Assembly (NCBI RefSeq): GCF_964355755.1
Contig: NC_092678.1
Location: 7,970,922-8,034,921, forward strand
DNA from: Antedon mediterranea
Taxonomy: Eukaryota; Echinodermata; Crinoidea; Comatulida; Antedonidae
DNA length: 64,000 bases
Reading direction: 5' to 3'
A program made the position numbers and the translations under genes. Of the stretch, positions 19,436 through 56,473 are shown one piece after another. Position 1 is the first letter of the stretch. Each line of letters begins with the position of its first letter. The notes beneath the pieces are model-generated. The model searched no databases and had not been told where the DNA came from. It was given only the letters and a program-made list of their open reading frames with translations.

Positions 19436-20459
19436 TCACAATGTATTAAGTGGAATCTGTACAGGTGCCGGTTGACGCACTTTGCAGTTAAAAATATAAG
19501 CAATTGTGTAAAGATACGGATTGACTGAGGAGTTGATGGGGATGATAAATGTCGCTGCCCAAACATATATGTCATCAGGAATCGTCATCCAACCCGTCTC
19601 GGAACCAATTGCCATTACTATAATCGGGGCCCAGCAACAGAAATCAGTGAAAACTATTAAGCCTAGTTTTCTCGCCATTTTTAACTGTTCTTTCCTCCTC
19701 TGTCTTCTATTGACAGTGGCCCCCGATCTTTTCACTGACAAGAAAATTGTCAGATAACTAAGTACAATTAAAAAAAAACCGACGCCATTAAAGGCAACAA
19801 AAATAGCAACAGCATACTCCCAACCTGGCCACCGACTTCTGGTTAAAGGTAGTGCAAGGCACACACTTTCCTTTCCATAATAATTGTCACCAAAATACGA
19901 TAAGTTTAATTCATTGGCTGTCACTGGAAGAAAACTCAGCACAATCCAGAATAGCCATCCGAAGCTGATAATGATTCGACATTTTGTACGGTTGAGGCGT
20001 TTCGTACTAAATGGATTAACAATGTTAATAGCTCGATCGACACTCAGCAGCATCAGTGTAAACACTGAGCATTGCCCAGAGAGTGTAGAAATAGCCCCTG
20101 CAAAACTGCAAAGGACACTATTTCTCCAATCTCTGGAAACCTTTCCGTATCTTCCTCTGTAATGTATATCCGCACTCGCAATGATGATCAGGTAGACTGC
20201 CATCAGCAGGTCAGACACGGCGAGGTTGGTGATAAGTGTGGTTTGGACTTTATTAACATTGTTAATATCATTATCTTTTTTAAACTTTCGTGAAACGATA
20301 ACAACAACATTCCCAATGACCGAAGATAACCCGATAATCATCATCAACACACGGAGAAGTTCATTTTTTAGCAAGTCTTCACACGATGCAAATGCATCTG
20401 AAGGCTCGCAGACATCGATGGGGCCAACAAGGCAACAGAGACTAGAGTATTCCGAGTAC
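19436..20459 (-). CDS. LGR exon: hinge plus seven-transmembrane domain
   Basis: The acceptor TTTTAG precedes 20459; the stop TGA is at 19438-19436. The exon encodes 340 residues. Residues 1-28 are the Cys-rich hinge (SSLCC, VCEPSDAF, SCED), as in relaxin receptors. Then come TM1 with GNVVVI, TM2 with LAVSD, TM3 following a conserved Cys (VLCSFAG) and ending VDRAINIVNPF in place of a classical DRY, TM4 with a Trp, an extracellular-loop Cys (ESVCLAL), TM6 with FTDFCCWAPI and TM7 with PINSSVNPYLY (NPxxY). The FTD-x-x-CW-x-P and LPINS-like segments are characteristic of the RXFP/GRL101 branch. The cytoplasmic tail is only about 20 residues, shorter than in vertebrate RXFP1/2. Positively charged KRSGATVNRRQRRKEQ forms the third intracellular loop. 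Confidence 0.95.
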
Positions 20460-26400: not shown

Positions 26401-29400
26401 TGTCAAGAAGTTAATTGATATTGGAGTTCAACCTGAATTGATGCCGTGGATTTGTGATTTTCTGAGCGAACGTAAACAGAGAGTGAAACTCAATGGCGGT
26501 TTTTCAAACTGGCAAGGAATAACTTGCGGAGTTCCTCAGGGGACGAAACTGGGTCCCTTAATTTTCCAAGTAATGGTTAACAATTCGCTTAGAGACTTTC
26601 CAAATCGGTGGAAGTATGTAGATGATTTGTCAATATGTGAAGTTCACAAGAAAACCCCGCCTAATGTTCAAGATCAATTAAACGAACTATCACAATGGAC
26701 CAAAGACAATAATATGATAATTAATATTGAAAAAACTAACTTTATGAACATTTCTTTTGCCAAATCTCAACCCATTGTTAAATCATTTACGATAAATAAT
26801 ATAAAAATAACCAATGTTGAATGCTTAAAGTTACTTGGGGTTCAGATCACTAATGATCTGAAATGGAATATGCATATCCACGATGTTGTTAATAGAGCCA
26901 GTAAGAGATTACATATGTTGACATGTTTAAAAAGATTTGGAATGCCTTGTAACCATCTGCGTCAAATGTATATTAGCCACATAAGACCTGTAACTGAATA
27001 TGCGTGTCCGGAATGGCACTCTGCCTTAACCATAGCACAATCCATGGAGCTTGAATCTATACAGAAACGCGCATGTAGAATAATTCTCGGACAAAAATAT
27101 GCATCCTATGATCAAGCAATTAAACTACTTAATCTTAAATTTTTAGATCAAAGAAGAGAAGATATTCTTCTTGATTTTGCTAAAAATCTTAACAAAATCG
27201 TCCCTAACGCACTTCCTAAATTGAGAGGCGAAACGTGTGGCAGGATACTTAGAAATGCTAAGAAGCAAAGTGAAATATATGGCAATACTAAAAGATTCAA
27301 CAACTCATGTTTCCCAGCACTGTGTAGACTAATTAATAAACCAAAATAAACACAACAATAATAATAATAATAATAAGTAATAAGTACTTTCATCAGTTTC
27401 TTCCATGTGTAATATATCCTTTTTAAAAATATTTCTTTTTTAAACTTTTTAACTTTTTAATGTTGTAAATTTTGATGTTTGAAAGCTTGTACCAATTTTA
27501 TATGTAAATCTCTCGCAATTCAGTTTTATTTTATATATACTGCAAAGAGAAATTTTAAATAAAAGCAGAATGAATGAATGAAGATATTTATACTGTGATG
27601 TTTAGGGTATGTGTTCTTTATCTGAATACTGTTACTGATTTAACGTAGACTTTTATACAATTTATGTAATTAATGATTATTGATCAACATTTTGTAGCAT
27701 TGAGAGCATGTGTTATTGCCGCTACGAAAGCCTTTGTTAGGGCTTCGTTTCTATATATCCAGAATTTCATGGATGCTTTTTGAGTTAATTTACCGACTTA
27801 TATAGTGTAATCTAGAATTATTGCGGTCATAAGATATTATGTAATGTTATAGGTAATTTTTATATGTTTTAAGAATAATGGTATTATGATGTAGATAATT
27901 GATTTCAATGAGTTTTCAACTTAGAAAATATCAGTATGGACCATTTGCTAAAGCACGTCACATAGCCGCTTGTTTTAATGACTAATGAATATTCATGAGT
28001 TGTACCTTGCTATCTGCGCATTGGTTACATAATACTGTAGGAATGTTATCTGACCTTCCTTTGTTCTTGCATAGCTTTTTTTATGGGTTTTGTATGGCTG
28101 TTTTCAGCTGTAAACAGATTTGTGTATATGTATTTAGACTGTAGTTCTTAATATTATAGGATCTACCAACTGTTAATCTGCTTAAGATACTGAAGTTAAT
28201 CAGAGACTTGTTTAAATGTTAATTACATCCGGTCAAAGTAGTAAGTTTCCATTGATTATGCTTTATAATATTATGTTTGAATTAATGAATCAGAATTGAA
28301 CATGAAAAGAATAATGTTAACTATCTAATGACAAGTCATTATTGAAAGGGTTGATGATTATGGATGCATTAATCTAATATTGAAATAATGTTTTATGTAT
28401 GTTTTCTATTTACATGAGCTTTTTAGTCAGGTTGACTTTTACTGTAACCTTTGTTTTTTATTCAATCTTTACAGAATTGAATGGTGTTAAATAAACACTC
28501 ATACATTAAGATCGGTTGTGATATTGTACTTTACTTCTGTCCGCCTCGCCACAATTCAATTTACTATTGTAAACCGCTGAGGAGTGATGGAGGAAAAGAA
28601 ACTGAAGAGACGAACAAGTAAGTCCAGATTCACCAGGCAGAAGAAACACCTGGACAACCTGGTTGATCATGATGAATCCGTTGAGGAAATCCAAACAGAA
28701 TTTGGAAAACTGGAATTGGCCTTTCATGGACTACAAGACAGACACGATGAGTATTGCGAAATGATTAAAGATGAAGAAGCATACAACAAGGAGGAGGAAT
28801 ATATTCAGGCATGTATGGATGAGTTTTTAGCAATTAAGGCTAAATACAAAATGGCTCTGAAAAAAAATCCACCTCAACTTCCGTTACCAGTACAAGTACA
28901 CGGACTGTCTAATCAGTCACCGCCTGCTTCGATTAATTCTGCATCCCTGTCAGATCCAGTTAGTGAAGTCATCGAGTCTTTGAATTCATCATCAACTGTG
29001 CAGACACGCCAGATAAAACTGAAACCTAGGGTTGAAAAACCAAAGTTACCTGTGTTTAGTGGAGACGTCAGAGAATACTGGACCTTTAGAGATGACTTTA
29101 AACACATGATTGAACCTGTCTATGAACCAAGAGATGCTGTTTCAATACTGAGGACCAGTCTAACAGGCAAACCATTAGAGTTACTAAAGGGAATAGGAAC
29201 CGACTATGTTGCATGCTGGAAGTACCTAGATCTATATTATGGGGATCCAAGAATAATTTCAGATGCTGTGACGCAAGATATATGAAAGTTTAGAGTGCTT
29301 AAAGAAGGAGAAGATCAGCGCTTTTGTGAGTTCTCACACCTAGTCAGAAGATGTTTGAACATACTAAAACAAGTTGGTAAGGAAGCGGATATGAACAATA

Positions 29401-32400
29401 ATCATATGCTAGCCCTAATTGAGATGAAACTAACCACAGAGGATAGGAAAGTGTATGCAAGATGTCTGCAACAAAAAGAAGAAGACGCCTCCTTAGAAGG
29501 TTTGCTTAAGTTTCTTGAAGTAGAAATGAGGTCTAGAATGAGAGCCACTGCAGCCGTCCGTAGTACACAGTCACCTGCTCAAGGTAAAGTTAATATGGGA
29601 CAGCAGGAAATAGATGGTCAAGCCAAACCAGATAACCAACATAAATCCAATCAACAGAAGTCAAACCAACATAAGTCTACATGGAAGAAATGCTGGGGTT
29701 GTAACACCAATGACCATTGGCCAGACCAGTGTACCATGATATCAGGATTACATGCAGCAGCCCGTCTAAAGATGGCGAAAGAAGTACATGCCTGTTTTAG
29801 TTGTCTGAAGAGAGCCGCCAAAAACCACAACATGAGGACTTGCAACCGGCGAAAGCAATGCAGCCAGGACAAGTGCGAGTCATACCATCATATACTTCTT
29901 CACCAAACTCCTACTAATTATTTAGCTAGTGTAGCTGCAAATGCCAATGATGTTGTGTTACCTGTAATTACTGTGAGGTTAGGTGTTGGTGACAATCACA
30001 TAGCTGGTAATGTCATGCTCGATTCGGGAGCTAACGTAACATTAAACCGACAAACTGTAGCAGAGGGATTCAACCTGGAAGGAAAACCAATAAGTATTGA
30101 CATTGGTATCCTAGGAGGTGAAATTCAAGCCCATCAGACCAAAATCTACCGAGTCACAATCTTAGCTCGCCAGAAAGAGCATACGATATCTGCTATTGAA
30201 GTTCCTGAGATAGCCAATGTGAAAAAGCCCAACAAGAATGTCATTAAGAGTTTAGAACGAGAGTTAGGCTGTACGTTGAGCCGAGGAGATGGTGCGGTTG
30301 ATGTTCTAATTGGTGTAGACTATCCTATGATGCATAGTGGAAAGACCAGGCAAGTAGATGGCTACTTACTCAGAAAATCACCATTAGGCTGGGTAACATT
30401 CGGGTCATCCAACAACCACCACAAACATAATATGACAGTGTTAACGATCAACTTAACTGAGAAGACCGATCTAACTAAGTTTTGGAGAACAGAAGAAATG
30501 GGGGTTCAGTTGCCAAATTGTTCCTGTAATCAATCACCATCTCATAAACTAAAGTTGACACCTTCAGAGAGACAAGAGTACAACGTGATGTGGAGGTCCT
30601 GTAAAAAGGTCGGAGACAAGTGGCAAATACCATACCCATGGAAAATGGATGTTTCAAAGCTAATTGACAACCAACTGCTTGCCGAGAGAATGCTAGTCTC
30701 GACTGAAAATCGACTAAAGAAAGACCTATCACACCTGAAATGCTATCAGCAACAAATGGAAGAAATGGTACAATTAGGTTTTTCCCGGAAACTGTCAGAG
30801 AATGAAATAGCGACTTATGATGGACCAATATGTTACCTGCCACACCACGCCATTATCAGATCAGATAAAAAAATCGACACCTGTAAGAATTGTATTTAAT
30901 GCATCTGCTAAATTTCAGGGCCAAGCACTAAACCAATTTTTGGGAGAAGGGTCCTGACTTACTTAATAATCTGTTTGGAGTTCTCTTGCGATTCAGGCAA
31001 CAAGAAATCGCTCTAGCTGCTGATATTTCGAAGATGTATCATCGTATATCTATACCCGAGAGCGACCAGCAAGTTCATCGATATCTATGGCGTGACTGTA
31101 ATCAAACAAAGAGGGCCGACATATATGTTAAAACTAATGTCACCTTTGGCGACAAACCAGCTCCTGCCATGGCTCAAGTAGCGTTGAGAAAAACAGCTAA
31201 AGTTAATGAGGAGACTTATCCAGAGGCAGCTCAAGTTATCACCAATGACAGTTATATGGATGACATACTGACGTCAGTGTCCGATGTTAAATCTGCCGAA
31301 CAATTGTCAACAGACATCGACCATGTGCTGAAAACAGGAGGCTTCCAAGTCAAAGAATGGATATTCAATGGTCAAATTCACAACTCGCCTACCAATCAAC
31401 AACTAAATGACAAATCGGTCCTGAATGACGAGTTAGAACAGAAGGTTCTAGGGGTAGTATGGAACCCTACCACCAACCTATTGCTTTATAAAGTTAAACC
31501 TGCCTCATTTCCAGCAAATGTTCTTACAAAGAGAATTGTTCTCAGTGAGCTGGCGAAAGTTTTTGATCCGATTGGCTTTGCTACGGCATTCCTGATAAGG
31601 GGAAAGATTATGATGCAGAAGCTATGGCAACAAGGGTGTGACTGGGATGATGACTTAAATGAAAATAGTAAAGCCGAATGGAGACAATTCTTTACAGAAT
31701 TAGCAGACTTAGATAAAGTTTCCTTTCCAAGATGCCTGTTGTCTAATTCCAGCCTCAAACCACCTGAACTAATTGTCTTTTGTGATGCTTCTGAGAATTA
31801 CAAGCTGCTGTTGTTGCATCACGACTGTACAGTACGATTAAAGAAGAAATGACAGTGAGTTTTGACCGAGTTGTATTCTTTTCGGATAGTATAATAGCTT
31901 TGTCTTGGATCCGACGAGGTCAGTCTAGACTCTACAAGTCATTTGTAGCAAACAGAGTTGCTGAAATTCAGGGTCATAAAGATCCATCTGATTGGCGTCA
32001 TATACCAAGAGAAAACAACATCGCCGACCAAGTATCCAGAGGTATTAATATAAAGAACCTGGAGAATGAATGGAAGAATGGACCAGCCTTTCTGAAGTTA
32101 CCGGAAGAACAGTGGCCAAAGTCTATTCCTAAAGCGGACACTAAAGAAATAGATCAAGAAAGGAAGAAAGATAAGACGGTATTAATGGTAAGCGCAGAGA
32201 AGAAAGTCGTCATCGACAGCGAAAGGTTTTCCTGCTGGAGGAAGTTAATCAGAGTCACGGCGTATGTTTTTAGATTTATTGCTAACCTGAAGGCGAAATG
32301 CAGTATAAATGAGGGTTCACTTTGCGCGGAAGAATTAAACATGGCGGAAGAGTACTGGATTTTTGATGCTCAGAAACAACTTAATGCCAGAATTCAGAAA

Positions 32401-35400
32401 GGAGAGTTGAAATCCTTAAGCCCGTTCCTTAAAGATAAGTTACTATACGTAGGAGGAAGAGCTTCTAAAAGTCTATTGTCGTACGACCAACGTCATCCAG
32501 TATTACTACCGAGCGATAACCATATTTCCTATCTGATTACCCGGTATGTTCACGAGCGGGGTCACTACGGAGTTGCTACCACAGCTGCTAAAGTCCGAAG
32601 CAGATACTGGATAATTGGTGTGACGAATTTAGCCAAGACGATTAAATTTCGTTGTGTAAAATGCAGAACCATGGAACACCAAACTGAGACGCAATTTATG
32701 GCTGATCTTCCTGTAGAAAGAATGGCTTCTGATACACCACTTTTTCTATTATACAGCATGCGACTATTTCGGGCCATATATTGTCAAAATTAGCCGAAAC
32801 AAGACAGCAAAACATTATGGAGTCATTTTTACTTGCCTCAACACCCGAGCTGTACACCTGGAAGTAGCAACCGATTGTTCTACGATGGAGTTTCTGTTAG
32901 TACTTAGACGATTCTTTGCAATCCGAGGAAAGCCGAAAATGATCCAGAGTGATAATGGTACACAGTTTATTGGTGCTGAAAGACAACTGCGACAAATGAT
33001 CCAAGGTTGGAGCAAAGAGGAATTAAAGAAATTTTGTGCTGAACAACAAGTAATCTGGAAATTCACCACCCCACTCGCTCCACACCAAAATGGGTGCGCA
33101 GAAGCACTAGTAAAAGGCTGCAAGTTGGCACTGAAGAAGGCTGTAGGTGAACAGAAACTGACACCATTTGAGCTTCATACATGTTTTCAAGAAAGAGCCA
33201 ACCTAGTCAACGAACGTCCTATTGGAAGAATTCCAAATGATCCAGATGATGGTAAATATATCTGCCCCAACGATATCTTGTTAGGTCGATCATCTAGTAG
33301 AGTACCTCAAGGACCATTCCGGCCAAGCAAGAACCCGAGAGAAAGATTAGAATATGTACAGAAGATAGGTAATGCATTCTGGAAGCGGTGGACTAGAGAC
33401 GTCTTTCCACTGTTAGTCCCTCGACGCAAGTGGAATGTAGACAGAAATTAAAAGTGAATGATGTGGTAATACTTTCAGACCCGAATGCTATTCGTGGGAA
33501 GTGGCACCTTTGAAGAATCACCGAAGTGTATCCCGGAGCCGATGGTCCAATCCGCAACATTAAAGTAAAAACTGCCACCGGACATTTCAGCCGACCTATC
33601 AACAAGATAGCTGTAATATGCCCAGCCGAAGGTTATTAGTATTGCAATGTATGCTAGATTTGATGCAACATTGTCGCATCGTGGGGGAGGATGTTTCGTT
33701 TGAAACAGATATTTATTTAGTTAACATTGAGGGCGTCCTTTCTTGTCTCTAATAAACAAGCGTAGATCCAGCATGGCGAGCAGCTGACTCGCATCGATGT
33801 TTTTATAAGTATTTTAATTCTGTTAATTTACCAGTTTTTAGTAAATATCATTAAGATATTTATACTGTGATGTTTAGGGTATGTGTTCTTTATCTGAATA
33901 CTGTTACTGATTTAACGTAGACTTCTATACAATTTATGTAATTAATGATTATTGATCAACATTTTGTAGCATTGAGAGCATGGGTTATTGCCGCTACGAA
34001 AGCCTTTGTTAGGGCTTCGTTTCTATATATCCAGAACTTCATGGATGCTTTTTGAGTTAATTTACCGACTTATATAGTGTAATCTATAATTATTGCGGTC
34101 ATAAGATATTATGTAATGTTATAGGTAATTTTTATATGTTTTAAGAATAATGGTAAATGATGTAGATAATTGATTTCAATGAGTTTTCAACTTAGAAAAT
34201 ATCAGTATGGACCATTTGCTAAAGCACGTCACATAGCCGCTTGTTTTAATGACTAATGAATATTCATGAGTTGTACCTTGCTATCTGGGCATTGGTTACA
34301 TAATACTGTAGGAATGTTATCTGACCTTCCTTTGTTCTTGCATAGCTTTTTTTATGGGTTTTGTATGGCTGTTTTCAGCTGTAATCAGAGACTTGTTTAA
34401 ATGTTAATTACATCCTGTCAAAGTAGTAAGTTTCCATTGATTATGCTTTATAATATGTTTGAATTAATGAATCAGAATTGAACATGAAAAGAATAATGTT
34501 AACTATCTAATGACAAGTCATTATTGAAAGGGTTGATGATTATCGATGCATTGATCTAATATTGAAATAATGTTTTATGTATGTTTTCTATTTACATGAG
34601 CTTTTTAGTCAGGTTGACTTTTACTGTAACCTTTGTTTTTTATTCAATCTTTACAGAATTGAATGGTGTTAAATAAACACTCATACATTAAGATCGGTTG
34701 TGATATTGTACTTTACTTCTGTCCGCCTCGCCAATTATTATTTTTAAATTATTATGTATTACACAAAAATAAAGTTCATTCATGTTGGATGAACTAAAAA
34801 CTAGCGATTTGTAAAGATATTTTATATTTTTTATAAGGTCACAAATTGTGAAATTATATAATAATATTAATCCATTATCATTGTATAACCAACAATGTAA
34901 AATAATTTGTAATTTAATTTCTAAATTTAAACCAAATTGATAAAAGTAAGCAAACATAAGCAATACACTTACAGTGTTTCCAATGCTGTCAAACCAGCAA
35001 ATGCATTGGCTGGTAATGTACTTATTTGGTTACTGTAGAAAAACCTTAAAAGTAAAAAGAATGCACAGTATAAGTAAATCACAATATCCAAGTTGTTTTA
35101 AATTATTTTAGTTTTTCTGTCATCTCAAATGTTAAAATCTCTACATTCCTGTACATTATACAGTAGTTATACTGCATGTACTCTATTGTATGTACTTTAG
35201 TGATGTCAAAATATACTATGTTAAAATAAAAAGGTGATATATTTTAACTTATTTTGTTAAAATAAAATTTCTGCAACAAATCAAAAATTGTTTGTTAGCA
35301 ACCATATAATAAATGTATTATCTAATATGTAATACAGATTCAGTTTCTATTGTTATATCTTACAAAAATAAATAGTTCAATCATGGTGGATACATTTTAA

Positions 35401-38400
35401 AAATGTTGATTTTTAAATTGGTTTTACTGTAAATAATCATGGAATCATAAGGTACATATTATTAGTCCATTATTACAATTTAACCTACAATGCATGCACT
35501 GTATTGTATAAATATTTTAATAATGTCAAAATATAAAATATATATTTATATTATTTTAATCATTTTTATTTTCATAAAACAGAATCACTACATAAACAAA
35601 TACTAATTATTTAGTATACAATCATTATAATGATATTTATATTGTGAAATTTTACATTTAAGATTAATTTTTAATTATTATGTATTACACAAAAATAAAG
35701 TTCATTCATGGTGGATGAACTAAAAACTAGCGATTTATAAAGATATTTTGTATAAGGTCACAAATTGTAAAATTATGTAATAATATTATCCATTATCATT
35801 GTTTAACCAACAATTAAAAATAATTTATAATTTAATTTCTAAATTTAAACCAAATGGGTAAAAGTAAGCAAACATAAGCAATACACTTACAGTCCTTTCA
35901 ATGCTGTCAAACCAGCAAATGCATTGGCTGGTAATGTACTTATTTGGTTCCTGTACAAAGACCTTAAAAGTAAAAAGAATGCACAGTATAAGTAAATCAT
36001 AATATCCAAGCTGTTTTTAAATTATTTTAGTTTTTCTGTCACCTCAAATGTTGAAATGTCTACATTCCTGTACATTATACAGTAGTTATACTGCATGTAC
36101 TCTATTGTATGTACTTTAGTGATTTACAAAATATACTATGTTAAAATAAAAATGTGGTAAATATATTTAAATGACTTATTTTCACAAAAGAAAATTTTAC
36201 ACCAAATTCAAATTGTTTGTTAACAACCATGCAATAGATGTATTATCTAATATGTAATACATATTTAGTATCTTACACAAATAAATAGTTCAATTATGGT
36301 GGATACATTTTAAAGTTGTTGCTTTTTAAATTGGTTTTACTGTAAATAATCATTGAATCATAAAGTACATATTAGTCCATTATTACAATTGAACTTACAA
36401 TACATGCACTGTATTGTATCAACATTTTAATGTAAAAATATAAAATATATATTTAATAATTTTTATTCTCATAAAACAAAATCACTACATAAACAAATAC
36501 TAATTATTATAATGATATTTATATAGTGATTGATTTTGAATTATTATTATTATTTTTAATTATTATGTATTACACAAAAATAAAGTTCATTCATGGTGGA
36601 TGAACTAAAAACTATTGATTTATAAAGATATTTTGATTAGATCACAAAGTGTACAATTATGTAACAATAATAATCCATTATCATTGCTTAACCAACAATG
36701 TAAAATAATTTTATATTTAATTTCTAAATTAAAACCAAATTGTAAAAGTAAGCAAACATAAGTAATATACTTACAGTGTTTCCAATGCTGTCAAACCAGC
36801 AAATACATTGGCTGGTAATGTACTTATTTGGTTACTGTACAAAGACCTTAAAAGTAAAAAGAATGCACAGTATAAGTAAATCACAATATCCAAGCTGTTT
36901 TTAAATTATTTTAGTTTTTCTGTCACCTCAAATGTTGAAATGTGTACATTCCTGTACATTATACAGTAGTTATACTGCATGTACTCTATTGTATGTACTT
37001 TAGTGATGTCAAAATATACTATGTTAAAATAAAAAGGTGATATATTTTAATAACTTATTTTATTAAAATAAAATTTCTGCAACAAATTAAAAATTGTTTG
37101 TTAGCAACCATATAATAAATTTATTATCTAATATGTAATACAGATTCAGTTTCAGTTGTTATATCTTACAAAAATAAATACTTCAATCATGGTGGATACA
37201 TTTTAAAAATGTTGATTTTAAAATGTGTTTTACTGTAAATAATCATGAAATCATAAAGTACATATTAGTCCATTATTACAATTGAACCTACAATGCATGC
37301 ATTGTATTGTATCAATATTTTAATGTCAAAATATAAAATATATATTTATATTTTAATAATTTTTATTTTCTTAAAACAAAATCACTACATAAACAAATAC
37401 TAATTATTTAGCATAACAATCATTATAATGATGATTTATATTGTAAAATTTTACAATTTCAGATTAATTTTGAATTATTATGTATTAATTTTCTAATAAT
37501 TTTTATTCTCAAGACAAAATTACTACATAAACAAATATTGATTAGGCCTACTTAGAAATATTTTGTCATTTTTTATATAAATGTGGTAAATATAATTTAA
37601 TAACTTATTTTCTTAAAATAAAATGTCTTCACCAAATGTAATTGTTTGTTAGCACCCATGTAATAAATGTATTATCTAATATGTAATACAGATTCACTTT
37701 CAATTGTTATGTCTTACAAAAATAAATAGTTCAATCAGGGTGGATAAATTAAAAAATTGTTGCTTTTTAAATTGGTTTTTACTGTAAATAATCATAAGGT
37801 ACATATTATTAGTCCATTATTACAATTGATCCTACAATACATGCATTGTATTGTATCAATATTTTATTTTAATGTCAAAATATAAAATATATTTATATTT
37901 TAATAATTTTTATTCTCATAAAACAAAATCACTACATAAACAAATACTAATTATTTAGCATAACAATCATTATAATGATATTTATATTGTGAAATTTTAC
38001 ATTTAAGATTAATTTTGAATTATTATGTATTACACAAAAATAAAGTTCATTCATGTTGGATGAACTAAAAACTAGTGATTTATAAAGATATTTTTTATAA
38101 GGTCACAAATTGTGAAATTATATAATAATATTAATCCATTATCATTGTTTAACCAACAATTTAAAATAATTTATAATTTAATTTCTAAATTTAAACCAAA
38201 TGGGTAAAAGTAAGAAAACATAAGCAATACACTTACAGTGTTTCCAATGCTGTCAAACCAGCAAATGCATTGGCTGGTAATGTACTTATTTGGTTACTGT
38301 ACAAATACCTTAAAAGTAAAAAGAATGCACAGTATAAGTAAATCTCAATATCCAAGCTGTTTTTAAATTATTTTAGTTTTTCTGTCACCTCAAATGTTGA

Positions 38401-41400
38401 AATTTCTACATTCCTGTACATTATACAGTAGTTATACTGCATGTACTCTATTTTATGTACTTTAGTGATGTACAAAATATACTATGTTAAAATAAAAATG
38501 TGGTAAATATATTTAAATGACTTATTTTCACAAAAGAAAATTTTACACCAAATTCAAATTGTTTGTTCGCAACCATGCAATAGATGTATTATCTAATTTG
38601 TAACACATATTTAGTATCTTACACAAATAAATAGTTCAATTATTTTAAAATTGTTGCTTTTTAAATTGGTTTTAAAGTAAATAATCATTGAATCATAAAG
38701 TACATATTAGTCCATTATTACAATTGAACTTACAATACATGCACTGTATTGTATCAACATTTTAATGTCAAAATATAAAATATATATTAAATAATTTTTA
38801 TTCTCATAAAACAAAATCACTACATAAACAAATACCGTAATTATTATAATGATATTTATATAGTGATTGATTTTGAATTATTATTATTATTTTTAATTAT
38901 TATGTATTACACAAAAATAAAGTTCATTCATGGTGGATGAACTAAAAACTATTGATTTATAAAGATATTTTGATTAGATCACAAAGTGTACAATTATGTA
39001 ACAATAATAATCCATTATCATTGCTTAACCAACAATGTAAAATAATTTTATATTTAATTTCTAAATTAAAACCAAATTGTAAAAGTAAGCAAACATAAGC
39101 AATATACTTACAGTGTTTCCAATGCTGTCAAACCAGCAAATACATTGGCTGGTAATGTACTTATTTGGTTACTGTACAAAGACCTTAAAAGTAAAAAGAA
39201 TGCACAGTATAAGTAAATCACAATATCCAAGCTGTTTTTAAATTATTTTAGTTTTTCTGTCACCTCAAATGTTGAAATGTGTACATTCCTGTACATTATA
39301 CAGTAGTTATACTGCATGTACTCTATTGTATGTACTTTAGTGATGTCAAAATATACTATGTTAAAATAAAAAGGTGATATATTTTAATAACTTATTTTAT
39401 TAAAATAAAATTTCTGCAACAAATTAAAAATTGTTTGTTAGCAACCATATAATAAATTTATTATCTAATATGTAATACAGATTCAGTTTCAGTTGTTATA
39501 TCTTACAAAAATAAATACTTCAATCATGGTGGATACATTTTAAAAATGTTGATTTTAAAATTTGTTTTACTGTAAATAATCATGAAATCATAAAGTACAT
39601 ATTAGTCCATTATTACAATTGAACCTACAATGCATGCATTGTATTGTATCAATATTTTAATGTCAAAATATAAAATATATATTTATATTTTAATAATTTT
39701 TATTTTCTTAAAACAAAATCACTACATAAACAAATACTAATTATTTAGCATAACAATCATTATAATGATGATTTATATTGTAAAATTTTACAATTTCAGA
39801 TTAATTTTGAATTATTATGTATTAATTTTCTAATAATTTTTATTCTCAAGACAAAATTACTACATAAACAAATATTGATTAGGCCTACTTAGAAATATTT
39901 TGTCATTTTTTATATAAATGTGGTAAATATAATTTAATAACTTATTTTCTTAAAATAAAATGTCTTCACCAAATGTAATTGTTTGTTAGCACCCATGTAA
40001 TAAATGTATTATCTAATATGTAATACAGATTCACTTTCAATTGTTATGTCTTACAAAAATAAATAGTTCAATCAGGGTGGATAAATTAAAAAATTGTTGC
40101 TTTTTAAATTGGTTTTTACTGTAAATAATCATAAGGTACATATTATTAGTCCATTATTACAATTGATCATACAATACATGCATTGTATTGTATCAATATT
40201 TTATTTTAATGTCAAAATATAAAATATATTTATATTTTAATAATTTTTATTCTCATAAAACAAAATCACTACATAAACAAATACTAATTATTTAGCATAA
40301 CAATCATTATAATGATATTTATATTGTGAAATTTTACATTTAAGATTAATTTTGAATTATTATGTATTACACAAAAATAAAGTTCATTCATGTTGGATGA
40401 ACTAAAAACTAGTGATTTATAAAGATATTTTTTATAAGGTCACAAATTGTGAAATTATATAATAATATTAATCCATTATCATTGTTTAACCAACAATTTA
40501 AAATAATTTATAATTTAATTTCTAAATTTAAACCAAATGGGTAAAAGTAAGAAAACATAAGCAATACACTTACAGTGTTTCCAATGCTGTCAAACCAGCA
40601 AATGCATTGGCTGGTAATGTACTTATTTGGTTACTGTACAAATACCTTAAAAGTAAAAAGAATGCACAGTATAAGTAAATCTCAATATCCAAGCTGTTTT
40701 TAAATTATTTTAGTTTTTCTGTCACCTCAAATGTTGAAATTTCTACATTCCTGTACATTATACAGTAGTTATACTGCATGTACTCTATTTTATGTACTTT
40801 AGTGATGTACAAAATATACTATGTTAAAATAAAAATGTGGTAAATATATTTAAATGACTTATTTTCACAAAAGAAAATTTTACACCAAATTCAAATTGTT
40901 TGTTCGCAACCATGCAATAGATGTATTATCTAATTTGTAACACATATTTAGTATCTTACACAAATAAATAGTTCAATTATTTTAAAATTGTTGCTTTTTA
41001 AATTGGTTTTAAAGTAAATAATCATTGAATCATAAAGTACATATTAGTCCATTATTACAATTGAACTTACAATACATGCACTGTATTGTATCAACATTTT
41101 AATGTCAAAATATAAAATATATATTAAATAATTTTTATTCTCATAAAACAAAATCACTACATAAACAAATACCGTAATTATTATAATGATATTTATATAG
41201 TGATTGATTTTGAATTATTATTATTATTTTTAATTATTATGTATTACACAAAAATAAAGTTCATTCATGATGGATGAACTAAAAACTAGTGATTTATAAA
41301 GATATTTTTATTAGATCACAAAGTGTACAATTATGTAACAATAATAATCTATTATCATTGCTTAACCAACAATGTAAAATAATTTTATATTGAATTTCTA

Positions 41401-44400
41401 AATTAAAACCAAATTGTAAAAGTAAGCAAACATAAGTAATATACTTACAGTGTTTCCAATGCTGTCAAACCAGCAAATACATTGGCTGGTAATGTACTTA
41501 TTTGGTTACTGTACAAAGACCTTAAAAGTAAAAAGAATGCACAGTATAAGTAAATCACAATATCCAAGCTGTTTCAAAATTATTTTAGTTTTTCTGTCAC
41601 CTCAAATGTTGAAATGTCTACATTCCTGTACATTATACAGTAGTTATACTGCATGTACTCTATTGTATGTACTTTAGTTATGTCAAAATATATTATGTTA
41701 AAATAAATATGTATATTTTAATAACTTATTTTATTGTCTACAACAAATTAAAATTGTTTGATAGCAACCATATAATAAATGTGTTATCTATAATGTAATA
41801 CAGATTCAGTTTCAATCGTTAGATCTTACAAAAATAAATAGTTCAATCATGGTGAATACATTTTAAAATGTTCACTTTAAAATTATTTTTACTATAAATA
41901 ATCATGAAATCATAAAGTACATATTATTACTCCATTATTACAATTGAACCTACAATACATGCACTGTATTGTATCAATATTTTAATGTCAAAGTATAAAA
42001 TATATATTTATATTTCAATAATTTTTATTCTCATAAAACAAAATCACTAAATAAACAAATATTAATTATTTAGTAAGATTTGTTATAATAATATTTATAT
42101 TGTGACAGTTACAATAAAGATGTATTTTGAATTATTATAATATTATTCAAAAAAATAAAGTTTGTTAAAGTTGGATGATCAAAAAACTATTGATTTTGAA
42201 AGTTTTTTTATAAGATCACAAATTGTGAAATTATATAATAATATTAATCCATTATCATTGTTAAACCAACAATGTAAAATAATTTGTAATTTAATTTCTA
42301 AATTAAAACCAAATTGGTAAAAGTAAGCAAACATAAGCAATATACTTACAGTGTTTCCAATGCTGTCAAACCAGCAAATGCATTGGCTGGTAATGTACTT
42401 ATTTGGTTCCAGCTCAAATCCCTTAAAAGTAAAAAGAATGCACAGTATATTTAGTAAATCACAATATCCAAGTTGTTTTAAAATTATTACATTACAGTAC
42501 TTTATGTGGTAAACATATTTTAAATTATTATTTCTAATTCTGCACCAAATGTTATACAGATTCACTTTCAATTGTTATATTTTACAACAATAAATAATTC
42601 AATCATAGTAGATACATTTAAAAAAAAATGTTGACTTTAAAGTTCTTTTTACTGTAAATAATTAAATTATGGAATCATAATGTACATGTTAGTCCATTAT
42701 TACAATTGAACCTACAATGCATGTACTCTATTGCATAAAAATGTTAATGTCAAAATATAAAATAATTGGTTATCCGCACTTGGCGGATAACCACTTGTTA
42801 TTGTCAGGATCTTTTTTTTTTTCTATCTTATTCTTCTTTCTTTCCCAGAATTTTGTGTCACGTGTATCTCATATTCTTATCAACATTACATCGTATAACT
42901 TTGTCAGAAGATTGACCTTTAACTGTAGAAGTCCAGGACATTTCGTTTTTCCACTTTAGAGTCGCGCAGCGTAAGTTACGCGCAATTTGATGAATTTCAA
43001 TGATTGATCATAGATTAAAAACCAAAAGTCATTTTATATTGACGCTTGGTGAAAATTTAAGTCATATCAAGAGCAAACTTTCTATGGATTAAAAATGGCA
43101 TGTTTCACAAAAAGTTACGCGCGCACGCACGTTTAAAATTTCAGAATGCGAAAAATCAATTTCTAATCAACTTTCTACGCATTTCATGTCATTTTAAGCA
43201 TGTCAAAAATTCCCACGTGAGCGCATAATTTTACGCGCGCGGTGCGCATGTAGCGCTAAAAACCTCTTTTTTCGCATGATTTATGTTTTTCGAGTCTTTT
43301 CTAGTAATTTGACCAATTTTCTAACAATTTCGATTTAAAATCACGTCATACGAGCACGTCAAATTGGACAATTTGCGCACGTTTTGATGAAAAAGTTAAA
43401 AAAACAGTCATAGATTCTAAACTACGCGGTGAACTTTTTTTTAATTACATATTCTGGAAGTTGATGAGTTGTAGATATCGGATCATGGATCAATATGGCT
43501 AACTAGACATTGTGACGTCATCATATGGCCACTCTAATATAAAATATAGGATTTTTGTCTTTTTCGTCATAGCTCATCACATTTAATTCCTTTTTCCATT
43601 TCCCTCCGTTTTTATATTGTCTTGTTCAATCATTTATCTTTCGCATGATATCATGATTAAAACGTTTTCTGGAAGCTATTGGATTGTAGATACGAATTCA
43701 TGTGAATATTTTGCCAATTAGATGTTGTGACGTCATCATATGGCTAGTTGAGTTCAAAAAGTCATATTTTCATCTCTTGCGTAAAAGTTCATTGCGTTTA
43801 AACGAGAGCGCATCTCACTTTTATAATTATCTTCTAAAATTGTTATCTTTATATGTCAATTTGATGACGTCAATGTGTTAATAATTGGATTTAAAAGATG
43901 GGTCTCGTAATTTCGTCTATGCTACACTGTATATAACATATAGGCCTACAGTTTTTTCTGTAAATACTGTAATATGCTGTATGCTACATAATAGGTACAA
44001 TTCAGCACTGTAAACATATTTATTTCATGTCATAGGATGGCATAATAATTGTCGAGGTTCATATGGTTAAGTATGTGCATGTTGCGTTTGCGCGGATAAC
44101 CCGAACTCGTCAAAGTGATGAGTTCAAATCTAGTTATATATTTATATTTTAATAATTTTTATTCTCACAAGACAAAATTAATACATAAGCAAAGTAGAAA
44201 AAATGAAGTTCTTTCATGTTGGATGAACTAAAAACTAGTGATTCATAAAGATATTTTTTATAAGGTCACAAATTGTGAAATTATAGAATAATATTAATCC
44301 ATTATCATTGTTTAACCAACAATATAAAATAATTTATAATTTAATTTCTAAATTAAAACCAAATTGATAAAAGTTTGCAAACATAAGCAATACACTTACA

Positions 44401-47400
44401 GTGTTTCCAATGCTGTCAAACCATCAAATGCATTTTCTGATAATGTACTTATTTGGTTATAGCTTAAATCCCTTAAAAGTAAAAAGAATGCACAGTATAA
44501 GTAAATCACAATATCAAAGCTGTTTTAAAATTATTACATTACTTTATGTGGTAAACATATTTTAAATTATTATTTCTAATTCTGCACCAAATGTTATACA
44601 GATTCACTTTCAATTGTTATATTTTACAACAATAAATAATTCAATCATAGTAGATACATTTAAAAAAAATGTTGACTTTAAAGTTCTTTTTACTGTAAAT
44701 AATTAAATTATGGAATCATAATGTACATGTTAGTCCATTATTACAATTGAACCTACAATGCATGTACTCTATTGCATAAACATTTTAATGTCAAAATATA
44801 AAATAATTATATAGTTATATTTTAATAATTTTTATTCTCACAAGACAAAATTAATACATAAGCAAAGCAGAAAAAATGAAGTTCTTTCATGTTGGATGAA
44901 CTAAAAACTAGTGATTCATAAAGATATTTTTTATAAGATCACAAATTGTGAAATTATAGAATAATTTTAATCCATTATCATTGTTTAACCAACAATGTAA
45001 AATAATTTGTAATTTAATTTCTAAATTTAAACCAAATGGGTAAAAGTAAGCAAACATAAGAAATACACTTACAGTGTTGTCAATGCTGTCAAACCAGCAA
45101 ATGCATTGGCTGGTAATGTACTTATTTGGTTATTGCTCAAATACCTTAAAAGTAACAAGAATGCACAGTATAAGTATAATCACAATATCCAAGCTGTTTT
45201 TAAATTATTTTAGTTTTTCTGTCACCTCAAATGTTGAAATGTCTACATTCCTGTACATTATACAGTAGTTATACTGCATGTACTCTATTGTATGTACTTT
45301 AGTGATGTCAAAATATACTATGTTAAAATAAAAATGTATATTTTAATGTATATTTTATTAAAAAAGAATGTCTACAACAAATTAAAATTGTTTGTTACCA
45401 ACCAACCAACCAACCATATAATAAATGTATTATCTAATATGTAATACAGATTCAGTTTCAATTGTTATATGTTACAAAAATATATACTTCAATCATGGTG
45501 GATAAATTACAAATAAAAATAATGTTGATTTTAAAATTCTTTTTACTGTAAATAATCATGAAATCATAAGGTACATGTTATTAGTCCATTATTACAATTG
45601 ATCCTACAATACATGCACTGTATTGTATCAATATTTTAATGTCAAAATATAAAATATATATTTATATTTCAATAATTTTTATTCTCATAAAACAAAATCA
45701 CTACATAACCAAATAGTAATTATTTAGTATAACAATCATTATAATGATATTTATATTGTCAAATTTTACATTTAAGATTAATTCAGAATTATTATGTATT
45801 ACACATAGCAACTATATAATAATGTATTATCTAATACAAAAAAAAATAAATAGTTCAATCATGGTGGATACATTTTAAAAATGTTGATTTTAAAATTGGT
45901 TTTACTGTAAATAATTATGAAATCATAAAGTACATATTATTAGTCCATTATTACAATTGATCCTACAATACATGCACTGTATTATATCAATATTTAATGT
46001 CAAAATATATATTTATATTTTATTAATTTTTATTATCATAAAGCAAAAATCACTAAATAAACAAATACTAATTATTTAGTAACATTTGTTATAATAATAT
46101 TTATATTGTGACAGTTACAATAAAAATGTATTTTGAATTATTATAATATTATTCAAAAAAATAAAATTTGTTAATGTTGGATGAGCAAAAAACTATTGAT
46201 TTTTAAAGTTTTTTTATAAGATCACAAATTGTGAAATTATATAATAATATTAATCCATTATCATTTCTTAACCAACAATGTAAAATAATTTGTAATTTAA
46301 TTTCTAAATTAAAACCAAATTGGTAAAAGTAAACAAACAGAAGCAATACACTTACAGTCTTTCCAATGCTGTCAAACCAACAAATGCATTGGCTGGTAAT
46401 GTACTTATTTGGTTAGTGTACAAATTCCTTAAAAGTAAAAAGAATGCACAGTATAAGTAAATCACAATATCAAAGCTGTTTTAAAATTATTTTAGTTTTT
46501 CTGTCACCTCAAATGTTGAAATGTCTACATTCCTGTACATTATACAGTAGTTATACTGCATGTACTCTATTGTATGTACTTTAGTGATGTCAAAATATAC
46601 TATGTTAAAATAAAAATGTATATTTTATTAAAATAAAATATCTACAACAAATTAAAATTGTTTGGTAGCAACCATATAATAAATGTGTTATCTATATGTA
46701 ATTCAGATTCAGTTTCAATTGTTAGATCTTACAAAAATAAATAGTTTAATCATGGTGGATACATTTTAAAAATTTTGATTCTAAAATTTGTTTTACTGTA
46801 AATAATCATGAAATCATAAAGTATATATTATTAGTCCGTTATTACAATTGATCCTACAATGCATGCACTGTATTGTATCAATATGTTAAAGTCAAAATAT
46901 ATATTTATATTTTATTTCTAAATGGTAAATATAATTATTTAAAAAAAATTATTTTTGCAAATCAATTATTTGTAGCAACCACATAATAAATGTATAATCA
47001 AATATGTTAAACAGGTTCAATTTAAATTGTTACAAAAATAAATAGTTCAATCATGGTGGATAAATTTAAGAATTGTTGTTTTAAAATTATTTTTACTATA
47101 AATAATCATGAAATCATAAAGTACACATTAGTCCATTATTACAATTGAACCTACAATGCATGCATTGTATTGTGTCAACATTTAATTGATGCCAAAATAA
47201 AAATTATTAAAAGTAAATATTCATCTCAAAACGTATGAATGTATAGTTCTACGTGATATTGTTCACTATAGGTTTAATTAAGGTACTCTGCACCTTATAT
47301 CTTAATTTGGGTTTTATTTAGCGTGATCCCTTTGTTCTTATAATTATGTGATGCCACTGCCCTTTTTTAACACTCAAACAAATAAAGACTTGGTTATACT

Positions 47401-50400
47401 TATCGGTGTGATAAATGTTTATTTATTGAAGTCCGTGACATTTGTTGAATTTGAATAAAATTATCAATTTTTATTCTCACAAGAAAAAATTACTACATAA
47501 TACTAGTTATTCAGTAACAATGATTATGATATTTATATTGTGAAATTATACAATAAAGGATTTTGAATTATTATATCTTCCAAAAAAAAAATTTCACTCA
47601 TGAACAAGAATGTGAATTGTTTTTAGAGTTATTTTTATAAGTATAAATAATTATAATAACATTACATAATATGAATCCACTATTATCAATGTAAAATAAT
47701 GTGCAATTGTATTCATAAATTAAAAACAAACTGGTTAAAATAATCAAACATGTAAAGTTGCCCTTGTTCCACACACAATAGAATCACAAAAAAACTGGTC
47801 AAAAGGAGACTTTTCGATGATAAAAATATAAAAATCACAAATACAAACAATATAGTTTAAACTAGCAAATGTGAAAAACTAAAAAAATAGAAATAATTCA
47901 GAGCATTCCACTCTCATTTAGGATGTACACGTCACATTACTTATTTTAACTACCTTTTGTATACTGTATATTCCAAGATTATTGACCTATTCGGAGCATG
48001 CACAGTATAAGTAAAATACAATATCCAAGCTGTATTTAAATAATTTTAGTTTTTCTGTCACCTCAAATTTTGAAATGTCTACATTCCTGTACATTATACA
48101 GTAGTTATACTGCATGTACTCTAGTGTATGTACTTTAGTTATGTCAAAATATACTATGTTAAAATAATTAATGTTATTTATAGTCTACTATCAAATTACG
48201 TAAAATGTCGTATACGGAAATTGACCAGATTACTGATGAAACGACCTAAATATACTGTAGACCGCCACAAGACCAGTAGTTCCACATTAACAAATTCCAC
48301 CCACTCCCCCTCTGTTCAATATTATCATGATTCTGCTTTATAAATAGCATGGACCTATATTATCTAAGAAATATAAATTGTAGATTTTGCTCACTGTATG
48401 ACATTAATTTAGTAAAAGTTACTTACAATCTTGTTATTGGATCATACACATTGTAATTAACAAGCTCCGTATGTATATTTGCATTCCATTGAGTACATCT
48501 AGTGTTATTATAACAACTTGCTGAGTAACACGTCCGGACATTACATGTGCAATGTCTTGGGCATCCGACTATAATGATTTTGTTAAAGAAAAACAAAAGC
48601 AGTAAATAATATAATTCAGTAGGCTAATTCATGTAAAACAACAACATTATCAAGTACTTTATTTCTATCTTACATAGTAGAGATAATGATGAATACTGGT
48701 GGTGTTATAACAATGAGTATTTTAAAGAGGAACATAAATTCTTATAATTCGATACAGGTGAAATAAAAATATATTATATGTAAACTTCAATATTACACTG
48801 TTTAATTTAATGGTATTGTTTATTTCGTCGTGTTAAACAATGGAATATTTAATATATAAGGAAAATAAGCGACGCCAAATGTAGCTTTAACTTTTTTTTC
48901 TCTCTAAATGGGTAAAACTATTGAAAATAGAACTTATTTTTATATAATTAATCCAGTGTATTGTATTATCGTCTGTTAGTACAGACGTTTGTATTTAGTG
49001 TGTCAAATTGTCCTTACTTTGACAAATAACACTAGCATCCTCATCGTGTCCACAATCGTGTACCCTCATTCCATTACATTTTAAACAATTACAATACAAG
49101 TTTAAAACATTTCTTTATTTACATGCTTACTGCTATTAATCTTAGTTGAGTGTTAGTAGCAATTGCAATATTGGCGGCGACCAAAACATGCCGAATCTAC
49201 TCAAAAAGTTACAATCCCCAAAACTAGTACTTTGGAACACACCCTCTTACAAGTTTGGAGCGAAGGGAGGGGAAGCACTGCACTCTCTAGTGACTACACC
49301 CTCTTACACGTTTGGAGCGATAGGAGGGGAAGCACTGCACTCTATAGTGACTACACCCTCTTACACGTTTGGAGCGATGGGAGGGGAAGCACTGCACTCT
49401 GTAGTGACTGCACCCTCTTACACGTTTGGAGCGATGGGAGGAGAGGCACTGAACTCCGTAGTGACAAGATCCTGGTCGAGTATTCGAGGAAACCAGAACA
49501 TTTGAATATAAATGAACATTTTGCAATAATACAGATGGTAAATTTAAGTAGATGTTTTACTGTGATATGATTTATTAAGGTAAAAATTTGTAATTTAATC
49601 TGATACTAAAAAAAATGTTAATTGTATTACTTTAACGAAAACAGGGTGTTGTGTTTGCTTACACCTGAATAATATGTAAATTAGCTTCATATAATAGTAA
49701 TTGTCTCCGTTTTTCTTGTAACCATATAATAGACCTACACAGTAGACACAGTACTGTCTGTCTGCGACGGTTTGCGACGACCGACGACGAAAATGATGTC
49801 ATTTTATTCATAGTAGGCATGCGGGGAAATTGGGAGAACATGAAATCGAATGTGACAAGCGTCAGTCGATTTTCAACTCCAAACGCGTTGAATGCGGAAC
49901 TTTCGGAGCCTCTGCGCATATAAATTTACTTCAGTTAATTGTTACTAACATTCGAACCAATGTTTGTTTAATTTACTAAAACAAAATATTTTAGGTAATC
50001 AACAATTTGTATGTGAAATTAAAATTGAAGCTTTATCTTTAAAAGTTTCCTGATAAAACAAATCTTATCGTCTTAAATGTGAAGTCCGTTCCGATACTAT
50101 TATATACCTTTAAATTATTAAGAAGATGGACCGAGGAAAATTATCTACATTATGGAAATGTGGAAACATAGAGGACATATCTAACTTTATATTCAGTTGA
50201 GATGCATTGCAATGTATAAGAGAAGAACAAATAAAAAAACAAGATTTAATTTAGAATAATGAGTTAGATGTATAGGAAATATTCTGCACCAGTAACAATA
50301 ATGATAAAATGTTATATATTCTGGGAACTACAATAATACTTTAAGGTGTTTTGACAAATTTATAAAATGATTTAAAACTGTACAGCTCGCAGACAGCTTA

Positions 50401-51056: not shown

Positions 51057-51566
51057 CTTGTTACGCAATTCAGTACCGTGGTGTGCGTAGTAAACTTTAT
51101 CTCCCAAAGTCATTTCAACGTTTGACATAATATTGTTTCTTTTAGTATTGTTGCAAAAGAGTTTTAAATAATTAAGATAAATCAGTTCACCAGCTGTATT
51201 ACTTTGCTTAGTGGGGTTGATATTAATATTTAATTGTTTTTGTTAAGTAATTACATATATAGATTGAAGATAACCAGTAATTATTGTGAATTTACTATTT
51301 GTACTATTGATTATTTTCTAAGAAAGTGTATAGAAAGGTTTTTTAGAACAAAGGATAAATGCAATTATAGGTAACGTAATTGTTTAAGAATGTTTGCAAG
51401 AATTGAACATTCTAAATGAGAAAATGAATATAATTGGAATATAACAGGAGTATTAGTTAGACACTGGTAGTGTACAAACTCTTGTTTACTTATGTATTTT
51501 ATGCATATAAAGCATAATATATATATATGTATAGGAAGAGAGGCACACACCAAACCAAAGAGAGAA

Positions 51567-56200: not shown

Positions 56201-56473
56201 GCTCCCATCTTTAGTAATTAAACTTTTTATGTGTTTCTTTTTACTTTTGGATCTTTCTAACCCAAGAAAGTATTTTGTATTCCGCTCGCCTTCCTCTATC
56301 CATTTTACTCTGGACCTAATTTGCGCGCCTTTTGCTTCTACATTATAAATGTTTTCAAGCTCTATTTTTTTGTTTTAAATTTTATTTTCAATGGTTATAT
56401 CACAATTTTGAGTATTCATAATTGTTTCATTTAAGTTTTTTATTTGTTTTTGTAATTTTTCTTTCTTTTTATT
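53276..56473 (-). mobile_element. L1/Tx1-type LINE, 5'-truncated, with 13-bp target duplication
   Basis: CAGCAAGCGAGTT occurs at 53263-53275 and 56474-56486, exactly flanking the element: a target-site duplication. The 3' end is an A-run (complement of 53276-53292) after CACAAAAGAG. The 3.2-kb body contains ORF2 without its N-terminal endonuclease, so the copy is 5'-truncated. Confidence 0.92.
53651..56374 (-). pseudogene. LINE ORF2: reverse transcriptase and C-terminal zinc ribbon
   Basis: The frame is open from just after a TAA at 56377-56375 down to 53651, about 907 residues. It contains EEGERNTKYFLGLE upstream of the palm, MEKNKTPGSDGLSVEF, the RPITLLNTDYKI motif, AIITVDFKKAFDSISR, GIRQGCPLSALLF and the catalytic QLADDTVLYVGN (LADD in place of the usual YADD), then RIIILKRLALSKLTYAA and a CDKCGEIENENHLFFSC zinc ribbon near the C-terminus. 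The same frame continues upstream of the TAA to the element's truncated end, so that stop is a nonsense change. L1/Tx1 group by motif order; exact clade not resolved. Confidence 0.9.

Follow-up and report, generated by a model that had tools for sequence, protein, structure and literature searches.

We analysed a 64,000-nucleotide stretch of the genome of the crinoid Antedon mediterranea (the window; contig NC_092678.1, positions 7,970,922 to 8,034,921, or C9:7970922-8034921 in the searched assembly of 354 Mb and 18 contigs), which carries on its minus strand a predicted leucine-rich repeat (LRR) receptor gene with a seven-transmembrane (7TM) domain. Eleven LRR exons described at 34973-46427 in an initial annotation are all present there, each exactly 72 bp long, preceded by AAG, followed by GTAAGT, beginning with G and ending with CT. 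The introns between these cassettes split a leucine codon, as had also been stated, and do so in phase 2, each exon beginning with the last base of the codon and ending with its first two, and every cassette encodes a close variant of xLxxNQISTLPANAFAGLTALxx. In a gene model built on splice consensus and open frame, an LRRNT exon, the 11 cassettes, five further LRR exons (72, 72, 72, 75 and 72 bp) and the 7TM exon splice into one stop-free frame. The annotated count of eleven exons of exactly 72 bp thus holds for the array, but the modelled receptor as a whole has 16 LRRs followed by the 7TM domain, and one of its LRR exons is 75 bp long.

From 5' to 3' on the minus strand, the model starts with the LRRNT exon (the cysteine-rich N-cap, 48427..48568), which ends in a split leucine codon and is open and in frame with cassette 1. 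The cassettes then follow in the open spliced frame, here given with their three-residue concave words: cassette 1 (46356..46427, N-Y-T), 2 (45073..45144, Y-S-N), 3 (44400..44471, D-S-Y), 4 (42350..42421, D-S-W), 5 (41449..41520, S-Y-S), 6 (40574..40645, Y-Y-S), 7 (39112..39183, S-Y-S), 8 (38237..38308, Y-Y-S), 9 (36775..36846, S-Y-S), 10 (35891..35962, S-Y-R) and 11 (34973..35044, F-Y-S). This array makes up the distal two thirds of the ectodomain and is set apart by a large intron from the proximal LRRs, namely LRR 12 (22740..22811), LRR 13 (22236..22307) and LRR 14 (21814..21885), all of 72 bp, and the 75-bp LRR 15 (21457..21531). The frame continues through LRR 16 (20740..20811, 72 bp) into an intronless last exon (19436..20459) that contains a cysteine hinge, the 7TM domain, a short tail and the stop codon. 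The 7TM receptor proposed in the annotation is borne out by the match of this exon to 7tm_1 (PF00001, E = 1.6e-31) within one open frame.

Cassettes 6 to 9 lie inside the two copies of a 2,337-bp unit that was recently duplicated in tandem (36501-38837 and 38838-41174). Each copy holds two cassettes, and when compared at a fixed offset the copies show 3 mismatches over their 2,337 bp. This duplication supports the view that the array is actively expanding, and it left the frame intact, in agreement with the prediction that whole LRRs can be gained in frame.

The window gene has the architecture of the LRR-containing G protein-coupled receptors (GPCRs) known as LGRs. A class A 7TM domain (7tm_1) lies C-terminal to an LRR ectodomain (LRR_8, E = 1.9e-106) in one open spliced frame, and by inspection the last exon contains, between the LRRs and the 7TM domain, the cysteine-rich hinge YSEYSSLCCLVGPIDVCEPSDAFASCED, which we take to be the LGR hinge motif. 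Among PDB chains ranked by E-value, the 7TM part is nearest to RXFP1 (4.4e-46), as expected of LGR type C, followed by FSHR (2.2e-31), LHCGR (3.1e-31), TSHR (2.6e-28) and LGR4 (8.2e-13). The predicted receptor therefore appears to be LGR type C-like, i.e. relaxin-receptor-like. Some RXFP/LGR3-type genes have phase 1 introns within TM2 and TM5, and some LGR4-type genes have a phase 0 intron after TM7 (PMC11863921). Neither is present in the window gene, where hinge, 7TM domain and tail form one unbroken exon and where, in the genomic sequence model, the frame runs past TM7 to the stop in the same exon. Assignment to either of these gene types was dropped because the diagnostic introns are absent.

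This 7TM domain has many relatives in the genome. A search with the 353-residue window 7TM query returned at least 99 matches distributed over contigs C1 to C11, of which at least 68, counting that of the window itself, extend over 290 or more of the 353 residues with an identity of 42% or higher; at least 44 of these 68 have no internal stop (all counts are lower bounds, 115 of 264 candidates having been scored). Nine further genes have 7TM domains 91-97% identical to that of the window: A, B, C, D, F and G on C7, H and I on C5 and J on C9. Besides the window we fetched 12 regions, comprising the arrays of A-D and F-J, region K (the far part of I's array; I and K were counted as a single gene, no other listed 7TM match lying between them), region E (an array near a more distant 7TM) and region M (a separate subfamily). 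Together these 13 regions contain 112 intact LRR exons of 72 bp, all free of stops. The majority are array cassettes; the G..CT ends are present in 107, and ten, mostly membrane-proximal, have a donor other than GTAAGT. As detection by exact length and core motif is partly circular, we added a length-free profile search as a check. It gave 124 matches, i.e. the 112 intact exons and 12 others (five decayed, six membrane-proximal with a different length or acceptor and one cut by the locus end). A 35-base core pattern was found at 151 sites genome-wide, and its reversed control at 0.

The number of array cassettes per gene is 1 in J, 5 in A and in B, 6 in C (one with an unusual donor), 7 in F and in H, 10 in E and in G, 11 in the window gene and 14 in D and in I/K. 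The idea that in-phase cassettes offer a route to receptor diversity is thus supported by a range of about 1 to 14 cassettes among genes with 91-97% identical 7TM domains, but in-phase LRR exons are not special per se, as the introns of gonadotrophin receptors are reported to be all phase 2 and their LRR exons similar in size (PMC11378527). Over 45 pairs of 10 genes, the 7TM exon has a mean proportion of non-synonymous differences (pN) of 0.018 and of synonymous differences (pS) of 0.070, or a pN/pS of about 0.25, and is under purifying selection.

The LxxLxLxxN rule defines the concave-face positions of an LRR, and by this rule we take exon positions 0, 2 and 3 to lie on the concave face. The assignment is consistent with PMC11378527. 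Our predicted concave set, assigned by motif, comprises positions 0, 2, 3, 5, 21 and 22, leaving 17 others outside it. Over 78 cassettes, entropy was 2.36, 2.34 and 2.85 bits at positions 0, 2 and 3 and 1.05, 0.94 and 0.66 bits at positions 21, 22 and 5, compared with a mean of 0.26 bits at the 17 positions outside the set, and the leucine codon lying between the variable codons was constant in 76 of the 78. A loose likeness to the modular variable lymphocyte receptors (VLRs), suggested in the initial annotation, is therefore stronger than was claimed, variation being focused on the concave positions. The four most diverged codons over 97 cassettes were 2, 3, 0 and 22 (pairs in this comparison are non-independent). 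By inspection, the proximal LRR exons look conserved: the first reads RLDNN or is one change away in 7 of 7 genes listed, and the 75-bp exon, a homologue of which occurs in all 9 genes examined, reads [NH]L[DE]NN[AS]IT in 9 of 9. For these analyses, array B (a copy of A) was dropped from the entropy, codon-divergence, nearest-pair and linkage sets, subfamily M from the entropy and linkage sets and M-to-other pairs from the 97-cassette comparison. The ten exons with a non-GTAAGT donor were dropped from the nearest-relative, codon-divergence, nearest-pair and linkage sets, and among the 102 kept there is still a single proximal one (LRR 14 of the window).

Substitution at codons 0, 2 and 3 exceeds that of the flanking introns. 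In 48 disjoint nearest pairs, these codons show 131 non-synonymous changes and 1 synonymous change in 432 bases (0.306 per base), compared with 0.056 in flanking introns, 0.109 in codons 21, 22 and 5 and 0.029 in the 17 other codons, the greedy choice of nearest pairs pushing the intron rate somewhat low. In the seven pairs with intron divergence of 0.5-2% (two of them from subfamily M), 17 of 63 bases of codons 0, 2 and 3 differ (0.270, compared with 0.010 in introns); all 17 changes are non-synonymous, and their number is 27 times the expected 0.63. This excess over introns indicates that relaxed constraint alone is insufficient and that strong diversifying selection or a codon-focused process accounts for it. 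Synonymous divergence in the rest of the cassette is below intron divergence (0.09-0.16), and the exon core looks homogenised.

How the variable codons change is less simple than either point mutation or block conversion would predict. Among 79 dereplicated cassettes, codons 0, 2 and 3 are linked to one another more strongly than in shuffles, though modestly (p = 0.002-0.012), and none of ten other codon pairs tested reached p < 0.05, the variable codons not being detectably linked to codons 10, 13 and 22. Twelve-base words are common to distant cassettes at a frequency of 0.0108, compared with 0.0075 +/- 0.0016, in the same 79 cassettes. In 10 of the 11 near pairs whose words differ, a word recurs in a distant cassette (a count made without a control), which would fit templated exchange. 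The 16 near pairs, which overlap, contain 23 changed codons, and 10 of these carry two or three base differences each, changes that are hard to obtain by point mutation alone. Neither simple point mutation nor block conversion fully explains both the linkage and the multi-base codon changes.

The arrays also bear marks of turnover and exchange. Instead of old, uniform divergence, units within the window differ by 0.13% (the duplicated block) up to about 15% (listed pairs), and flanking introns across all arrays by 0 to over 20%. Near-identical cassettes occur within arrays F, G, H and K as well; the 98% filter used for such units skipped the window's own duplication, which BLAST had merged into a longer match. 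With A-to-B pairs set aside, the nearest relative of 58 of the 102 cassettes lies in the same array and that of the other 44 in another array (14 of them on another contig). The 7TM frame is identical in A, B and C, and pS in this frame is 0 among G (C7) and H and I (C5); among the arrays of these six genes, only A and B have a word order in common. When C is compared with A, the final mismatch lies 67 bp beyond a cassette exon and is followed by windows of 99.7-100% identity toward the 7TM end (99.93% over 4.3 kb there), while on the other side of the array the two are clearly different, LRRNT included. A breakpoint inside the array is the pattern that an exchange there would leave, with a new recognition half joined to an old signalling half. 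The residues of each cassette, together with exchange between about ten loci spread over three chromosomes, contribute as much to diversity as does the number of repeats at the window locus.

We consider it likely that the window gene belongs to a large and recently expanding family, made up of relaxin-receptor-like LRR class A GPCRs with exchanged and diversifying cassettes. In-phase, phase-2 exons would allow unequal crossing-over or gene conversion to add, drop or swap whole LRRs, and strong diversifying selection on concave-face residues would keep new surfaces. The outcome would be germline-encoded receptors in which one signalling module, presumably acting via G proteins, is combined with a variety of ligand surfaces. 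Their most likely role, judged by analogy, would be to recognise fast-changing ligands, such as microbial surfaces, self/non-self molecules or gamete molecules, with a GPCR output.

Several parts of this architecture are known already. The single in-phase LRR exons, cysteine hinge and class A 7TM domain are shared with LGR type C (RXFP1/RXFP2, LGR3, LGR4, GRL101) and represent an old LGR architecture. Unlike LGR type C, the window gene has an intronless 7TM exon and an array of near-identical cassettes whose concave residues are hypervariable, and its LDLa module is a candidate only. Numbers also differ: in the ambulacrarian species that Veenstra (2021) studied, each irp-type LGR was reported to have a single orthologue (PMC8286064), compared with at least 68 long 7TM matches in this one genome. 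Similar shuffling is known from the brown-algal LRR-ROCO genes, which have one 72-bp phase-2 exon per LRR, exon shuffling and positive selection at concave sites 14, 16, 18 and 19 (PMC11378527, citing Zambounis 2012). Thus both families have 72-bp phase-2 LRR exons in which four concave sites diverge, and in our own register the algal sites would correspond to codons 22, 0, 2 and 3, respectively. However, the algal genes encode GTPases with a ROC-COR domain, whereas the crinoid family consists of animal 7TM receptors with arrays on three contigs, and the likeness is a resemblance, not homology; a ROC-COR domain was neither looked for nor seen in the crinoid genes.

VLRs are diversified by a gene-conversion-like deaminase mechanism and lack a 7TM domain. 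Those of lampreys and hagfish consist of 24-residue LRR modules that vary in number and bind ligand by the concave face (PMC3900441, PMC4731796), with diversification mediated by deaminases (PMC3900441). The crinoid family shares with them LRR modules variable at concave positions (assigned by motif) but differs in that its modules are germline exons with introns; it works like a VLR without being a member of that group. The SudRes2 region of Biomphalaria, associated with schistosome resistance, contains a cluster of GRL101-like GPCRs with haplotype differences (PMC12297450), so tandem clusters of LRR-GPCR paralogues are common to both, but the SudRes2 receptors described there have C-type lectin and LDL domains, with no mention of arrays of exon cassettes or of selection at concave sites in the text consulted. 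PRDM9 zinc-finger arrays are also coding repeat arrays with fast turnover and positive selection at contact residues; those repeats form a DNA-binding coding minisatellite, whereas the repeats here are separate exons of a receptor. In the open-licence literature searched, part of it represented by excerpts, we found no family of animal GPCRs built on arrays of hypervariable LRR cassettes.

To our knowledge, the germline recognition of changing non-self is poorly known outside vertebrates, and GPCRs are rarely considered as variable recognisers. If the family is what we propose, a hormone-receptor scaffold would have been turned into a modular, fast-diversifying family of recognition receptors that signal directly through G proteins, in convergence with VLRs, the LRR-ROCO genes of brown algae and the arrays of PRDM9, and the old in-phase LRR exon architecture could be seen to become a diversity generator.

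Some observations weigh against this interpretation. At the level of the receptor, the nearest solved relatives of the ectodomain are LGR4 and LGR5 and RXFP1 is not the best match, one 7TM comparison (A, B and C with J) has a pN/pS of 0.96, and the gene model comes from genomic sequence, with uncertain N-terminal exons (signal peptide, LDLa). Among the cassettes, the five decayed copies mean that some are broken, strong variability is confined to three of the six predicted concave positions (at position 5 most cassettes have Q), and an entropy of 1.08 bits is reached at position 10, which is not part of the concave set. The eight closest pairs (4 differences in 3,997 intron bases) have no change in the variable codons, and pN exceeds pS in the other cassette codons too (0.042 compared with 0.017, or 2.5-fold), synonymous divergence of the exon being low. 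The near-identity of A and B, which show 1 difference in 9,982 aligned bases at a distance of 119 kb, together with the match of C to A over kilobases, makes uncollapsed haplotypes possible. Finally, an immune or allorecognition role is drawn from analogy alone, with the Biomphalaria GRL101-like cluster and the brown-algal ROCO genes, yet we prefer it to a hormone-receptor role.

The alternatives that survive best are two, and we regard each as possible but doubtful. One is that diversity is made mainly in RNA by alternative splicing of cassettes, as in Dscam or brown-algal ROCO genes. The common length and phase of the exons make their junctions compatible with it, the 72-bp phase-2 LRR exons of the algal genes show multiple splice variants (PMC11378527), and ambulacrarian LGRs sometimes skip LDLa and LRR exons (PMC8286064). 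By itself, splicing would leave unexplained the excess of concave substitutions and the different arrays behind one 7TM domain, and it is compatible with a family of exchanged and diversifying cassettes. The other is that the family is chemosensory or reproductive (gamete or hormone) rather than immune or allorecognitive, with concave residues that track diversifying peptide ligands. In its favour, a relaxin receptor is the solved chain most closely related to the 7TM part, the sensory tentacles of starfish express a GRL101-like receptor (PMC6267866), and starfish RXFP/LGR3 acts as a receptor of spawning peptides that are relaxin-like (PMC11863921). Differing words in most cassettes of a gene, together with arrays that differ between genes, would nevertheless not be expected to result from a single peptide-receptor pair; reproductive self/non-self recognition is possible.

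A bolder form of the recognition hypothesis seems improbable to us. It would hold that this is an antibody-like GPCR repertoire in which constant 7TM modules on several chromosomes are served by loci that exchange cassettes, and in which concave codons are renewed by a focused process (short-tract conversion or mutation targeting, which might also be somatic or work by way of combinatorial splicing) rather than only by selection acting on random point mutations. It is also improbable that the near-identical genes and units are an assembly artefact, i.e. haplotypes or falsely expanded repeats set in tandem. The A/B pair and the kilobases of near-identity between C and A on the 3' side are what such an artefact would produce, but the other arrays lie on three contigs, synonymous divergence between their 7TM frames reaches 18% of sites, and 7TM matches are spread over C1 to C11. 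Should C be an allele of A, the difference between their arrays would itself be allelic variation, as the initial annotation had predicted. Least probable of all is an ordinary LGR gene under neutral concerted evolution, with array size shifted by unequal crossing-over and residue differences that are relaxed drift irrelevant to binding, since, even though gonadotrophin receptors share the exon layout (PMC11378527) and the 2,337-bp duplication could be explained by unequal exchange alone, drift should not outpace introns (0.270 compared with 0.010 per base in the seven pairs, 17:0 non-synonymous, on which ground we rejected it) or leave the leucine codon between the variable codons nearly constant.

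Upstream of the array, the N-terminal parts of the gene are more tentative. An open frame at 50978..51128 (minus strand) is a candidate first exon with a putative signal peptide (MFVFKVVIILVELSISSC...). An N-terminal LDLa module is a feature of LGR type C (PMC11863921), and by eye an LDLa-like half module (CLKCNGMRVHDCGHDEDASVICQ) lies at 49018..49113 (minus strand) as a candidate with tentative exon borders. This 32-residue piece has no Pfam match; a homologous stretch is present in genes G and H, with a 2-bp length difference between the window and G/H and without a clear acceptor. It may be a remnant, the LDLa module possibly having been lost in the subfamily of the window gene. Homologues of the LRRNT exon (72-89% protein identity) were found in A, B, C, G and H and in E, whose copy has an in-frame stop, and were not found in the remaining fetched regions. 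Also in the 5' part of the gene, a tandem repeat with a 57-bp period occupies 49182-49466 (114-nt windows 61%, 95% and 90% like the reference copy).

Two further sets of related sequences were observed outside the window. Subfamily M (C7, 22.112-22.132 Mb) has 12 cassettes of the 72-bp type with a different acceptor context, and its near-identical units also differ in concave residues. At C8:24384662-24487350, at least eight further LGR-like 7TM matches are clustered, each with at least one internal stop codon; this cluster is perhaps decaying, or perhaps has different exon ends.

The large intron between the array and the proximal LRRs contains, within 23600..33500, retroelement-like frames at 23628-24536 (minus strand), 25307-27349 (plus strand) and 28581-33451 (plus strand). 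PF00078 matches 25307-27346, and the one frame scanned from the 28581-33451 series (29286-30896) has no Pfam match. A 907-residue reverse-transcriptase frame (PF00078, PF13966) lies at 53651-56374 (minus strand), and the shorter intronic frame at 23628-24536 is by eye nearly identical to its end, a sign of recent retroelement activity. At 58771-59474, a probable minisatellite gives long open frames whose translations form a degenerate TVALTGLWRLLDCGAYW-like repeat. Elsewhere in the genome, 150 exon-level matches (not genes) to the sialyltransferase family PF00777, with clusters on C1, C3, C5, C7, C9 and C11, indicate that this family is unusually large in A. mediterranea.

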